A stretch of DNA of 59,837 nucleotides. Source: a virus. Made by a program: the position numbers and the translations under genes. Positions 1 through 45,426 of the stretch are shown piece after piece (position 1 is the stretch's first letter; every line of letters starts with the position of its first letter). A model generated the notes under the pieces. It was not told the origin of the DNA. It was given only the letters and a program-made list of their open reading frames with translations, and made no database searches. The DNA is taken from positions 1 to 59,837 of IMG/VR virus record IMGVR_UViG_3300035071_000150, one strand, 5' to 3'.

Positions 1-342
1 TCACGGCGGCGGTCGCGGACTCATGATGATTAGGCCTGGCAGCCCGCTCGCGTCTCGCACAGGGCGTTTCTCCGGCGGGAAGTGGCCGCCAGGGTCGTTA
101 ATCCAAACGCGGGCAATCCCGACTCGCTCCGCATAAGCGAGCGCTTGAAGAAGGGCGTCGGCGGCCGACAACGGTCGCGGAAAAGCCTCGGGATCGGGCG
201 TCGCGCCGAATGTGCTGACGCTGACCGTGGCAAGAACCGGCGTTTCGGCGTCCGGGTCATAGCGCACATGCACCTCAACCACGGGCCCGAACGGCAAGGC
301 GCTGCGATGCTCGACGATTCGCGGTATGAGGAAACACCCCAC
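1..342 (-). CDS. Hypothetical protein, 113 aa
   Basis: An intact frame whose TGA stop is the first three bases of the window. It encodes a soluble alpha/beta-type protein without signal peptide or membrane segment, and I recognise no family. It is transcribed away from the plus-strand gene at 326, and the two 5' ends overlap by 17 bases, so one of the two start choices may be too long. It may be the last phage gene or a flanking host gene. The sequence does not decide this. Confidence 0.5.
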   Translation of the reverse strand: MGCFLIPRIVEHRSALPFGPVVEVHVRYDPDAETPVLATVSVSTFGATPDPEAFPRPLSAADALLQALAYAERVGIARVWINDPGGHFPPEKRPVRDASGLPGLIIMSPRPPP

Positions 343-1069
343 AGGCCGCCGTTGGTTCGATTGCCCGTCGTTTCTTCGAATTTCTGCTTACCGAGTGCTG
401 ACCGGAGCCCGGCATTTACTGAGGCGTCTCTCAAGCCTCGCGTCTATGTGTTTGAAATCCCTGGCTCCCCGAGTAGGTTTGAAACAACGCTTTAAAAGCG
501 CGGCGGACACGGAAGGTGCGGGATCGTCAAGCCCCATTGAGCGCAAACGGCCTTCTTCAGCGGTCCCCGCACCTTTCGATGCGGAGCCGCCCCTGACGGA
601 GCGGGAGATTCTTGCTATTGACCTCATTGACCCGTTCCGGGCTCCAGCGGGGTTCCCCGATGTTGCTCATTGTCGGCTGGCGCTTTCGAGGCTTGGACGA
701 TGGCCACTTGATGGATCCTCGATCAGAGAACTCCGCGCATGGTTGCGCGGCGTCCCTATGTCGGATCCAGAGCGCGTCCGATCGCGGGATGGCGTCATCT
801 ATTTTGTGGGATACGACAACTACGTCAAAATCGGGTTTTCAACGAACCCAAAAACGCGAGTTGATGACCTCCAAACTGGAGCGCCGAAGCCGCTCAAGAC
901 CTATCTGATTTTGAAGGGAACGCTTGAGGATGAGCGCCGCCACCACGAGATGTTTGCGGCGCATCGGCTTAACGGTGAGTGGTTCCGCTACTCTGACGAG
1001 ATCAAGAAATTCGTGTGGGACAATCGGCCCCGCTCTCCGAGTCGGCCGCCTCGTCGCCTCTCGGTGTAA
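326..1069 (+). CDS. T5orf172/GIY-YIG-type nuclease domain protein
   Basis: The C-terminal third (about residues 150-235) has the layout of the T5orf172 branch of the GIY-YIG nuclease superfamily: VIYFVGYD strand, KIGFSTNP, conserved Arg, LQTGAP, a Glu-His helix and a GEWF motif near the end. Members occur in phages as nucleases or as DNA-binding parts of larger proteins; the target is unknown. The N-terminal half is Arg-rich and low in recognisable structure. No clear ribosome-binding site precedes any of the ATGs at 326, 446 or 759, so the start is uncertain. The domain itself lies wholly after the ATG at 759. Confidence 0.6.
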   Translation: MRKHPTGRRWFDCPSFLRISAYRVLTGARHLLRRLSSLASMCLKSLAPRVGLKQRFKSAADTEGAGSSSPIERKRPSSAVPAPFDAEPPLTEREILAIDLIDPFRAPAGFPDVAHCRLALSRLGRWPLDGSSIRELRAWLRGVPMSDPERVRSRDGVIYFVGYDNYVKIGFSTNPKTRVDDLQTGAPKPLKTYLILKGTLEDERRHHEMFAAHRLNGEWFRYSDEIKKFVWDNRPRSPSRPPRRLSV

Positions 1070-3825: not shown

Positions 3826-4283
3826 TGACCGCTGACACGAAACCCGTACTCGACAGGCTGCGCGACAGGCTGCGCGACAGCCTGATTTACGAAGGAAAGA
3901 TCGAAGAAGACTATATGCGCGGCCTAGAAGATGCGGTAGCGGCCGCGCTCGCCGCGCTCGCGCGTCCCCAGCCGGTCGCGGTGGAATCGGGTGAGCCGAG
4001 CGACGCGGAACTTGTCTCGAAGATCGCTGTCGTTCTAGCGCATCAAATGGGCTACACAGGCAACAATTACGATGGCCCGTTTGGGAATCGTGCCCGGCAA
4101 ATTCTAGCCGTCGTCGACCTCGCGCCCCGCGAAGCGGCGGCATATGCGCGTGGGATCGAGGATGCGGCGAAGGTCATTGACAGAGAAACGGGCATGGCGA
4201 TTTCTCCTCAAGCTGCGGCGTGGCTCATTCGCGACATGCTCCCCAAAGAGCCCGCGACCGAGAAACCCAATGCTGACCGATGA
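3825..4283 (+). CDS. Hypothetical protein, 152 aa
   Basis: I place the start at ATG 3825, nine bases after AAGGA, although the frame is open from 3807. The N-terminus contains a repeated DRLRDRLRDSL segment encoded by the tandem repeat at 3852. It is mostly helical with an Ala-rich stretch (VAAALAALA). It has the look of a modular small phage protein made of shared pieces. No function can be assigned. It overlaps the next gene by 14 bases. Confidence 0.6.
   Translation: MTADTKPVLDRLRDRLRDSLIYEGKIEEDYMRGLEDAVAAALAALARPQPVAVESGEPSDAELVSKIAVVLAHQMGYTGNNYDGPFGNRARQILAVVDLAPREAAAYARGIEDAAKVIDRETGMAISPQAAAWLIRDMLPKEPATEKPNADR
3852..3884 (+). repeat. Tandem 12-bp repeat inside a gene
   Basis: The unit GACAGGCTGCGC occurs twice in a row, followed by a partial third copy with one change. 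It stays in frame and encodes repeated D-R-L-R, so copy-number changes would not shift the reading frame. Probably slippage-derived. Confidence 0.7.
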
Positions 4284-36944: not shown

Positions 36945-37280
36945 TCACGCCGCGATCCTATATTTCACACGCCGCCGAGTTGGCTCAACATCTCGATTGA
37001 CCAAGTTTGGCAAAAACGCGATCAAAGTCTCCTCCGTGCGGCGAGCCTGCTTGAGCGTATAGAACAGCCCTATTGAGACCATGTTTGGCCTTCGGCCAGA
37101 CGCCACCATCCATTGATAAACGGCGCTGTCCTGCATCGAGAAGTGCGCTTGGCGCCTTGTATGGAAATCCCTAGTCAGACCTACATAGATCGGCGCATCC
37201 GTCGCCGGATCGACCATCAGATAGACGTGCCACTTGGGCTGCCATCTTTCTTCTTCTTTTTCGGGTTCCGCTTGCGCCAT
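36945..37280 (-). CDS. GIY-YIG domain protein, 111 aa
   Basis: The GIY-YIG nuclease fold is recognisable: HVYLMVDPATDAPIYVGLT (VYL and YVG as the two motif halves), RDFHTRRQAHF with conserved Arg and His, and EETLIAFLPNLVNRD with a Glu. ATG 37280 is the first start that leaves the fold intact; it overlaps the next gene upstream by 64 bases. It could be a free-standing endonuclease or a DNA-repair-like nuclease. The target is unknown. Confidence 0.65.
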   Translation of the reverse strand: MAQAEPEKEEERWQPKWHVYLMVDPATDAPIYVGLTRDFHTRRQAHFSMQDSAVYQWMVASGRRPNMVSIGLFYTLKQARRTEETLIAFLPNLVNRDVEPTRRRVKYRIAA

Positions 37281-37477
37281 TCCCGCATGTAGCCCTTCAT
37301 GTATTCCTTCATGTAGGCTTTGTGAGCGGCGTTCCGGTCGTATTTCGGTTTCTTCTTCTCGATATCCACACTCTTGGCATGATCTTGAGGAGGCGTCGGC
37401 GACTGCGGCTCCGCACTCGGAGCAGGCGAAACGAGTTTGCATGATTTACCCTTTTTGGGGGCGAATTTGATAACCAT
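37217..37477 (-). CDS. Basic protein, 86 aa
   Basis: A very Lys-rich protein (MVIKFAPKKGKSCKLVSPAP ... KAYMKEYMKGYMREWRKRNP ... KKKKKDG). The repeated YMKEYM pattern is frequent in small phage proteins beside HNH or GIY-YIG genes and looks like a DNA-binding arm. Its frame overlaps the 5' end of the GIY-YIG gene. Confidence 0.6.
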   Translation of the reverse strand: MVIKFAPKKGKSCKLVSPAPSAEPQSPTPPQDHAKSVDIEKKKPKYDRNAAHKAYMKEYMKGYMREWRKRNPKKKKKDGSPSGTSI

Positions 37478-41908: not shown

Positions 41909-42822
41909 GCAACCTCCAATTTTTTGCCGGCGTTCTCGGCCAGCCAGCGTTTAATTTTCGGATTCTCGTCAGGCGGATCGCCCCATTGCGGCGCCCACGA
42001 TTGCGGGTTTTCGCGCCACTTCTCGACGGCTCGGCGAAGGTTGTCTTCTGGCATCGGATACATGCTGCCAATGTCGATTTTCCGCCCCACATCGGGAGGT
42101 TTTTGCGGACATTTTGCAAACGCTTCGGCGATCGCTTTATCGAACCAGCGCAGGCCCTTATCCTTCGCCGCCGGCAGTTTTGATCGAATGACCGAAAGGC
42201 ACAGATCGGCGGGGAACCCTTGGGCCAGCCAGACAGCAACCTCGCCGGTTGCGGGCGGGACACCGGCGCCGGCAGCGCGATAGGCGTCGCAAATAGCGAC
42301 CCGAAGTTTCATTTCCTCGGTTTCAGCCTTCGGAGCGCGCGCGGGTTCAACAACGCTCGCTGGAAGGTTATCTCCTATATCCCTCCTTCCTCCTTCCTCC
42401 TTCCTCTGCGACTCTTTTTCCGTAGGGCCAGGGGACGGCTGGGGGACGGCTGGGGTAGCAATGGCGGAATGGCGCTCTTTTGATCCAGTGAATTTCGCCA
42501 TTGCTGGGGAAATGTCAAAGCGGAACGACGGGTTTTTTGGTCGCTGATAACGTCCAAAGTTGCGGATATACCCGTAGGGCTTCCCCTCTACTTCCTCAAT
42601 CCTCACGCAGTCTAGCTTGACAAACTCCGCGAGGATTTCCGCGAAGTCGAGATTGTCTGCGGGGAAAATGCGCGCCTTCAAAACGATTGGCTTCCACTCG
42701 AAAGCGCCGCTGTCGTCGCATTCCGTCCACAACAACGGCCACGCGGCCTTTGCCGCCATGCTCATTGACATATAAATCTCATCCGACGCGAGGCCGGGAT
42801 GGATTGATCGGATACGCGCCAT
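41905..42822 (-). CDS. Replication initiator-like protein, 305 aa
   Basis: N-terminus MARIRSIHPGLASDEIYMSM and MAAKAAWPLLWTECDDSGAF, VKLDCVRIEEVEGKPYGYIR are characteristic of phage replication proteins with a winged-helix start (O-protein or DnaD-like role). The C-terminal half (LCLSVIRSKLPAAKDKGLRW) is helical and may touch the helicase. Start codon overlaps the DnaB stop (TAATG). It would load the helicase encoded immediately upstream, or mark the origin. Confidence 0.65.
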   Translation of the reverse strand: MARIRSIHPGLASDEIYMSMSMAAKAAWPLLWTECDDSGAFEWKPIVLKARIFPADNLDFAEILAEFVKLDCVRIEEVEGKPYGYIRNFGRYQRPKNPSFRFDISPAMAKFTGSKERHSAIATPAVPQPSPGPTEKESQRKEEGGRRDIGDNLPASVVEPARAPKAETEEMKLRVAICDAYRAAGAGVPPATGEVAVWLAQGFPADLCLSVIRSKLPAAKDKGLRWFDKAIAEAFAKCPQKPPDVGRKIDIGSMYPMPEDNLRRAVEKWRENPQSWAPQWGDPPDENPKIKRWLAENAGKKLEVA

Positions 42823-45269
42823 TACCGCTCCCGTCCTGAAATGAAGCTCGCCGCCGGGTCGCAAAACAGCTTGACCATCTTCGTCGGCCCCGTCCGCACC
42901 TTGGCGCAAATCACGTCAAGGTCGTTCTTGATCGTCTCGAAATGGTCGATCGCCACGGGATCGTTCGCGATGTATTCCGGCGAGCGCACGGCGTAATAGG
43001 CTTCCCGGTAGAGGAAGTTCACCACGTCGGCGCATTGCTCGATGTCGCCGCTGTTGCGGAGGTCTTGCAGCTGCGGGCGCCGGTCATTGGCGGCGCGGCC
43101 CTCGACCTGTCGGTTGAGTTGGCAAAACAGGTGAATTTGCACCTTCTCGCGCCGCGCCAGCGCCTTCAACCCGGTCATGATCTCGAAAATCTCTTGCACG
43201 CGGTTGCCGGAATAGCGGTCGGTCGCGTCGAGATAGTCGAGATGGTCGATCATCACCACGGCGAGGCGAATGTCGCGCGCCGCGAGGCGGGACTTGACCT
43301 GTTTGATGCGGGCTCCGAGCCGCGCCAAGGTGATGCGTTCGGAATCGTCGATCACGAGCGGAAGATCGCGCAACCGCTGCCATGCCTTCGCGACGCGGGC
43401 GCGGTCGGTTTCGTGCGGCAAATCCCGGTCAAGAATGCGCGAGAAGAAAATCGCGTTCGACGACGAATAGGCCAAGTCCGCCAGATGGCGCGAGACCGCC
43501 TGATCCTTTCCGTTCTCTAATGGGAACTCCAGAACGCCAAGGCCGGTTTGCGCGATGCGCCGAGCGGCAGACGTGGCGAATATGCTGTTGTGCGTAACAA
43601 TATAATCATCGGTGACGTAAAGCCGTGACGGATGAGAAACCGAAATGCAGACGCACTCTTCCTCTTCGTGAGGTGTGATGGACTCGATAGTTGTCACTCT
43701 GAACCAAGAGCGGTCGGCAACGCGCTCCTTTTTCCGCGCCAGATGGAACGCATCCTCAATTCCGGCGCCAGAAATACAAATCTGATGGCAGTCTAATTTC
43801 TGTTCGCGCCCACCATTACCATCATGCACGAATGAAGGTTTTACAATTCTGCTTGTCCAATATCCGAGCGACCACGCAAGCTGGCAAACATCGTCTGCCA
43901 ATCCGCTCGAAGCTGTCGCATAATATGCCGAGCCGTTCTTTTCCGCCCACCCGTCTGTGTCCATCAGTCCACGAAGAAGTTCGACGCGCGAGCGGCGGCT
44001 AGCGGATAGATAAACATCCGGGATTCTTTTTTCTTCGGCTCTCTTGCCCGTCATGCCAAGTTCGCGGAGCGCCGACATAAATACGTTCTCGCCATTGCCA
44101 GCCGCGCCGCTAATTCTGTAACAAAAGTCGCCGCATTTCTTTGATGTTACTCTGACCGGCAAAAGGCTATTGAGCCGATCAATTGTCTCATCGTCAGCAG
44201 TGGAGAATAAAGGTGTGGCGTGCATCGTGCTGCCGTTACCTATCATCGCCCCCACCAGCCATGGGTCGATTGACAAAAATTCATCATGCCCGAAATTACC
44301 GGAAACGCGCCGAACGGCCAAGCGGCTCTGATACCGCTTGCGAGTGAGCATCACTATTAGTTTCGCGGTGCTGACAACGCGCGGCGAATCCCAGTCTCTA
44401 TATTTTACTTCCCAGAGATGGTCGGAACAACAAAACGTCTCGCGTCCGTCGGATAGCCTGACGCGATAGGTCAGAAGGCGACCGCGAGGATAGACCGCCG
44501 TAACGATGTTTTCGGTCCCATCTATCGAGGCGAGGCGGTCTCCGACTTTGACAGAGGAGAAATCAGTCCATCCCGTCTTCGTCTTTATCTTGCAATGGAG
44601 CGGTTGAGCCTTTCCCGCGCCTGGGCGACCAGCGGTAACGACAACTTCGCCAGGACGGTATCGCGTAACTTTATCGAGCGGATCAAACCCCGTCGTGAAT
44701 GTCTCGAAACGAAGCTCTCCCGCTTGAACCCTGTCGATTTCATCAATAATCCCTCCCGCTATGTCTCCAGCCCACGCCACGGACGATCGGTCGTCGGCGT
44801 CGAGTATCGGGCGCGTCGTCTCGGAAAACCAATCCAGCGCCTTCGCTGGGCTTTCCGTCACCGGCATGTTGCGGGCGGACGCGCACAATTCAGCCGACGC
44901 AGCGATAATGGCGCGACGATGGGCTAGGTCACGCACGACGGTCGCGTAATCCGGCGCGTTGATGATCGGGGGCGCCTCAGCGCAAAGATGCGCGAGATAT
45001 GCGCGCATGTTCTGGCCTTCCGGCATTTGGACATGCGCGAATGCGTCCTTCAACGTGACGACGTTCGCGACCTTGCCGGCGCCGACAGCTTCGGTTATCG
45101 CTTGATAGACCGCGCCGTGGACCGGATCGGCGAAATGCTCGACTTGCAGAATGCCTATGACGTGCGCGACAGCTTCGTTCCGCATGAGACACGCGCCCAA
45201 GACGGCTTGCTCGGCTTCGAGATTGCAAGGGCCTAGATCGGTCGGTGGGACGCTATTTTGTGCGGTCAT
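42822..45269 (-). CDS. dnaB: Replicative DnaB helicase containing an intein
   Basis: The precursor has 815 aa when started at ATG 45269, where the upstream gene's stop overlaps; a longer start at 45317 lies in another gene. The DnaB N-domain (LEAEQAVLGACLMRNEAVAH) and linker are followed by Walker A GRPGAGK-S, split by an intein of 341 residues (43587-44609). The C-extein has the RecA-like core: EFPLENGKDQAVSRHLADLA, Walker B-like LAVVMIDHLDYL and QLNRQVEGRA with arginine finger region. The spliced helicase has about 474 aa, a normal DnaB length. Without splicing the ATP site would be broken. Confidence 0.93.
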   Translation of the reverse strand: MTAQNSVPPTDLGPCNLEAEQAVLGACLMRNEAVAHVIGILQVEHFADPVHGAVYQAITEAVGAGKVANVVTLKDAFAHVQMPEGQNMRAYLAHLCAEAPPIINAPDYATVVRDLAHRRAIIAASAELCASARNMPVTESPAKALDWFSETTRPILDADDRSSVAWAGDIAGGIIDEIDRVQAGELRFETFTTGFDPLDKVTRYRPGEVVVTAGRPGAGKAQPLHCKIKTKTGWTDFSSVKVGDRLASIDGTENIVTAVYPRGRLLTYRVRLSDGRETFCCSDHLWEVKYRDWDSPRVVSTAKLIVMLTRKRYQSRLAVRRVSGNFGHDEFLSIDPWLVGAMIGNGSTMHATPLFSTADDETIDRLNSLLPVRVTSKKCGDFCYRISGAAGNGENVFMSALRELGMTGKRAEEKRIPDVYLSASRRSRVELLRGLMDTDGWAEKNGSAYYATASSGLADDVCQLAWSLGYWTSRIVKPSFVHDGNGGREQKLDCHQICISGAGIEDAFHLARKKERVADRSWFRVTTIESITPHEEEECVCISVSHPSRLYVTDDYIVTHNSIFATSAARRIAQTGLGVLEFPLENGKDQAVSRHLADLAYSSSNAIFFSRILDRDLPHETDRARVAKAWQRLRDLPLVIDDSERITLARLGARIKQVKSRLAARDIRLAVVMIDHLDYLDATDRYSGNRVQEIFEIMTGLKALARREKVQIHLFCQLNRQVEGRAANDRRPQLQDLRNSGDIEQCADVVNFLYREAYYAVRSPEYIANDPVAIDHFETIKNDLDVICAKVRTGPTKMVKLFCDPAASFISGRER
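43587..44609 (-). other. Class 3-type intein with LAGLIDADG domain
   Basis: Intein of 341 aa between GAGK and S in the Walker A loop. Position 1 is Ala, so the usual Ser/Cys1 nucleophile is missing. Block B reads SDHLW (His64, Trp66), block F CVCISV (Cys321), block G TH-N (Thr339, His340, Asn341), then Ser+1. Trp/Cys/Thr is the WCT triplet of class 3 inteins, where the block F Cys starts splicing. A LAGLIDADG domain is present: LVGAMIGNG (118-126) and LLRGLMDTDG (211-220). In the first motif Asn125 stands where an acidic residue is normal, so cutting activity is doubtful. Confidence 0.9.
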
Positions 45270-45426
45270 CGTTCCCCGCGCTGGGCTTGAGGTTGGCCAG
45301 AACGCGGGCGGCAACACAGTCTAAACGATCGAACGTATCGGGCGCTTCGTCTTCGGGCGCGACTTCCTTCAACGCCAAATCGTCGAGGATCGCTTGCTGT
45401 TCGTAAAAGCGCATGAGATCGTTCAT
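45253..45426 (-). CDS. Small acidic protein upstream of dnaB, 57 aa
   Basis: MNDLMRFYEQQAILDDLALK, then an acidic linker and FDRLDCVAARVLANLKPSAG. Its stop overlaps the DnaB start region (it ends 15 bases after ATG 45269), so translation is coupled. It may help helicase loading, judged only by place. Confidence 0.55.
   Translation of the reverse strand: MNDLMRFYEQQAILDDLALKEVAPEDEAPDTFDRLDCVAARVLANLKPSAGNDDRTK

Follow-up and report, generated by a model that had tools for sequence, protein, structure and literature searches.

What is the insert that splits the Walker A motif of a phage dnaB gene, and how could an active helicase be made from such a gene? The gene comes from the IMG/VR virus record IMGVR_UViG_3300035071_000150, and the whole stretch analysed, 59,837 nucleotides long, is referred to here as the window. 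The insert is in frame, comprises residues 237-577 of the ORF translation, and occupies DnaB site b (the P-loop), where it separates the Walker A Lys from the Ser that follows (GRPGAGK/S). We have very little doubt that a full-length class 3 intein has been inserted at this site; we infer that it splices, and its endonuclease is probably inactive now. The features of the gene are listed in Table 1. The ORF is listed from a GTG at 45317; the true start is likely the ATG at 45269 (MTAQNS...), which both intein-free relatives considered below also have.

Table 1. Layout of the interrupted dnaB gene and its insert (positions in the window)
Feature	Position	Strand	Evidence
dnaB-like replicative helicase gene, intein-interrupted	42822..45317	-	Pfam DnaB_C 2.6e-45, DnaB N 4.5e-22; PHROG 19
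N-extein, ending ...GRPGAGK	44610..45317	-	translation and intein-free alleles
intein, 341 aa, Ala1 to Asn341	43587..44609	-	missing from the L097 and L098 alleles, otherwise 93-94% identical (amino acids)
HINT (splicing) domain, N-terminal half: blocks A and B, His64 (B:10), Trp66 (B:12)	44403..44609	-	
LAGLIDADG endonuclease core, residues ~115-250: block C GAMIGN(125)GS, block E GLMDTD(219)G	43860..44265	-	
splicing domain, C-terminal part: blocks F and G, Cys321 (F:4), Thr339 (G:5), His340, Asn341	43587..43691	-	
C-extein from Ser+1 (SIFAT...), completing Walker A GAGKS	42822..43586	-	

L097 and L098, two phage contigs from IMG/VR that were retrieved with the C-extein, have dnaB genes without an insert. 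Both genes read as unbroken GRPGAGKSIFAT, straight through GAGKS, and thus make both intein junctions exact to the codon. The residue in intein position 1 is Ala, and there is no nucleophile in this position; Ser+1 completes GAGKS both in the translation and by comparison with the intein-free alleles. The initial annotation had described both features in the same way. In the DNA available for comparison, the match of L097 and L098 to the window is confined to the replication module and its surroundings, and the capsid-portal-terminase DNA of the window is absent from both contigs. Thus dnaB seems to move between mosaic phages. The GC content of the intein is 52.7% (GC3 0.56) versus approximately 61% (GC3 0.735) in the extein, which fits a later arrival of the intein. 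No near-identical intein was found among the relatives searched.

Trp66, Cys321 and Thr339, proposed earlier to form the class 3 WCT triplet, are all in place (motifs CCSDHLWEV and EECVCISV), and the alignment has Cys at F:4 and Trp in block B. The intein also carries His64, two positions before Trp66, and the terminal His340 and Asn341. All these residues are invariant in alignment A3 (56 sequences). Among 88 related inteins, Trp B:12 is found in 86, Thr G:5 in 87, and Cys F:4, His B:10 and the terminal His-Asn in all 88. Of 13 additional relatives, drawn from named phages and genomes, 12 keep the WCT residues and one, from phiCbK, does not. The best E-value in the tblastn comparison of the intein with its relatives was 1e-67; given this value and the invariance of the signature residues in A3, the insert is not a product of chance. 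Cys319 was also considered as the nucleophile, but in the F:4 alignment the invariant Cys falls at 321, and Cys at 319 occurs in just 17 of the 88 relatives; Cys319 was therefore rejected.

At B:12, Phe was observed in L075 (3001-4134) and His in L040 (242-1273), and Ala is at G:5 in L062 (2980-4014); all three inteins keep Cys at F:4. Such class 3-like inteins that break WCT would test the strictness of the signature. The +1 residue of class 3 inteins is Ser or Thr and rarely Cys. WCT inteins with Cys in position +1 were observed in Mycobacterium phage Phrappuccino (L147) and in L081 (2818-3918). In a 2016 paper, the Bvi IcmO intein was described as the sole class 3 case with Cys+1 (PMC5222942).

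Among PDB sequences, the first half of the intein is matched best by 6riz, a version of gp41-1 into which the class 3 triplet was engineered (PMC7664689). The class 1 parent of 6riz, 6qaz, comes next, and then 6rix, the Mycobacterium chimaera class 3 DnaB intein. Trp66 and Cys321 align, respectively, with F65W and D107C of gp41-1_WCT. The AlphaFold model of the intein (pLDDT 95.2, pTM 0.93) matches the folds of the full-length, endonuclease-bearing inteins PI-SceI and TliVMA, and then those of the class 3 DnaB inteins 6bs8 and 6rix. The quick tree, which contains almost no class 1 inteins, places the window intein among WCT inteins. Sequence and structure prediction support the class 3 assignment and the mechanism proposed initially, and the tree is consistent with them.

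Splicing would follow the mechanism described for class 3 inteins (PMC5222942, PMC3196547, PMC7664689). In the precursor, the Walker A Lys and Ser would be held apart by the intein. Cys321 would attack the peptide bond before Ala1, yielding a block F branched thioester, and the N-extein would be transferred to Ser+1. Cyclisation of Asn341 would free the intein, with an O-N shift restoring GAGKS and the active helicase.

The extein dN/dS is 0.063 and 0.069 in comparisons of the window with each of the intein-free alleles, and 0.064 between L097 and L098. These values, about 0.065, indicate strong purifying selection on the dnaB extein of the window. The helicase is thus under the same constraint with and without the insert, implying that splicing takes place. 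Set against this constraint and the wholeness of the extein, it is highly improbable that a class 3-descended intein has ceased splicing here and that the phage uses the host DnaB, even though such a non-splicing case, the Arth_1007 pseudogene of Arthrobacter FB24, has been published (PMC3196547). The Hyphomicrobiales-type genomes searched do encode a DnaB of their own, and the endonuclease of the window intein already looks damaged. However, Arth_1007 lacks the B:10 His and the F:4 Cys, whereas every splicing residue of the window intein is intact.

Another reading is an intein of class 1 or 2 with a chance Cys at F:4, in which Ser+1 attacks directly or splicing proceeds in some other way. 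Cys at F:4 is known from class 1 inteins (PMC3196547), and the intein of Caulobacter phage phiCbK has this Cys without Trp B:12 or Thr G:5. On the other hand, the window intein has Trp, Thr and Ala1 as well, and in its family, whose members often start with AQPL, WCT is nearly universal by the counts given above; we regard this reading as extremely improbable. The preferred explanation is a class 3 intein that would be initiated by Cys321.

Class 3 inteins in phage DnaB and a proposed phage origin of the class have already been published (PMC3196547, PMC5050341), and DnaB site b is occupied by the class 3 intein DnaBi1 of Mycobacterium smegmatis (PMC6195587). DnaBi1 and MchDnaB1 of M. chimaera share with the window intein the insertion point between Lys and Ser of the P-loop (PMC6195587, PMC7664689), the WCT triplet and Ser+1. 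Both are structural matches to the model of the window intein, and MchDnaB1 also has Ala1. However, both are mini-inteins without an endonuclease, whereas the window intein is full-length, and M. smegmatis Cys48, which forms a redox disulfide with Cys118, is apparently not conserved in it by the 6rix alignment. Mycobacteriophage Bethlehem, the founding case of class 3, is similar in its host protein, a phage DnaB, and in the class 3 signature, as described in the literature (PMC3196547).

Full-length inteins with an endonuclease and WCT, 36-43% identical to the window intein, are found at the same site in the DnaB of L006 and L109 (both from IMG/VR), Escherichia phage TL-2011a (L118), and Rokubacteria L087. 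In the quick tree of 88 inteins, these four and the window intein are on one side of one branch, the group of five being defined as the inteins in genes that match the DnaB extein of the window. Grouping by site takes 1 change versus a shuffled mean of 4.9, as expected from site-specific homing, although the SH-aLRT support of the branch is only 80%. The DnaB of L087 (1281 aa) contains, besides its P-loop class 3 intein, a second, intein-like insert in the C-terminal half, with CVTGDT at the start and VSHN at the end.

The LAGLIDADG endonuclease embedded in the window intein would formerly have driven homing into empty dnaB genes. PI-SceI, the best fold family, also combines a splicing domain and a LAGLIDADG endonuclease in one chain, but it is a class 1 intein and has both catalytic Asp residues (218 and 326). 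In an active homing endonuclease, each of the two LAGLIDADG helices is expected to end in an acidic residue. In the window intein, block E (GLMDTDG) is intact, with Asp219, and block C (GAMIGNGS) has Asn125, aligned with the catalytic Asp218 of PI-SceI. This block C position is Asp in 84 of the 88 relatives and lacks it in four. Since Asn125 stands where most relatives have the catalytic Asp, homing of the window intein appears to be impaired and is probably lost, the endonuclease being probably inactive now. Besides these four, L109, with Asn like the window intein, and Acidovorax phage L150 have no block C Asp; thus Asn in this position may not always abolish activity. The change from Asp to Asn may have arisen more than once, as Asp is kept in the rows nearest to L109 (L087 and L006) and in L118, the tree row nearest to the window.

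The empty site itself lies in an unusual context. L097 and L098 are nearly identical elsewhere, but close to the homing site the majority of their synonymous sites differ: the frequency of synonymous codon differences is 72% in the 20 codons on either side versus 23% in the remainder (Fisher p = 4e-9). The divergent block begins approximately 60 codons ahead of the site and ends approximately 100 codons past it (dnaB around locus position 4000). Pairs including the window allele have a weaker version of the peak, and the rest of the gene has few segments of equal divergence (rank fraction 0.02 to 0.11, depending on segment size). In a control, the small set of intein-free dnaB genes L111-L114, the three pairs that exclude L113 had no P-loop excess, and the three that include it had a slight one (21-22/80 versus 16-23% in the flanks). 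That the peak coincides with the insertion site is no more than suggestive; the peak could stem from co-conversion in the past, from selection to escape cutting or from ordinary mosaic recombination. From the pattern in L097 and L098, one could suppose that the dnaB P-loop is a gene-conversion hot spot formed by repeated intein invasion and loss, with the window copy being a splicing-competent, endonuclease-dead late stage; we consider this rather unlikely.

The window had been assigned to an alphaproteobacterial P22-like phage. The P22-like part is supported by PHROG matches of the portal, head-closure, scaffold and coat proteins, and by the portal's own matches. The alphaproteobacterial part depends on relatives of the portal: those in genomes of the Cohaesibacter order are 43-47% identical, whereas identity does not exceed 36% among the phage records listed; this suggests that the phage probably comes from a relative of that order. 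The window also contains a MUG113/T5orf172 (GIY-YIG type) nuclease-like gene at 326-1069 (+ strand) and, at 36945-37442 (- strand), a gene with a weak GIY-YIG match and a zinc ribbon. These are possibly other selfish nucleases.

It had further been suggested that the window intein widens the host range of class 3. This is not so, as WCT inteins already occur in an Erythrobacter phage, in a Cohaesibacter prophage and in many other hosts. The intein is matched by 779 INPHARED records, 706 of them over at least 80% of its length, and a scan of IMG/VR gave at least 600 matches. WCT was read directly in viruses of Erythrobacter, E. coli, Proteus, Xanthomonas, Acidovorax, Mycobacterium, Eggerthella, Enterococcus, Bacteroides, Microcystis and Methanosarcina. 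Cohaesibacter marisflavi has a WCT intein in a prophage terminase. Among 385 genomes of the class to which Cohaesibacter belongs, there were seven matches at 1e-20, and the full WCT was confirmed in the Cohaesibacter one and in L101. Caulobacter phage phiCbK was rejected as a further precedent, since its intein is not WCT. No class 3 intein was found in 16 genomes sharing the P22-like portal.

The known range of class 3 inteins, which already includes phages of several phyla and an archaeal virus, is unchanged. What the window adds is a class 3 intein with well-defined boundaries, in a phage gene for which natural alleles exist both with and without the intein; such a pair is useful for testing the need for splicing, homing and loss.
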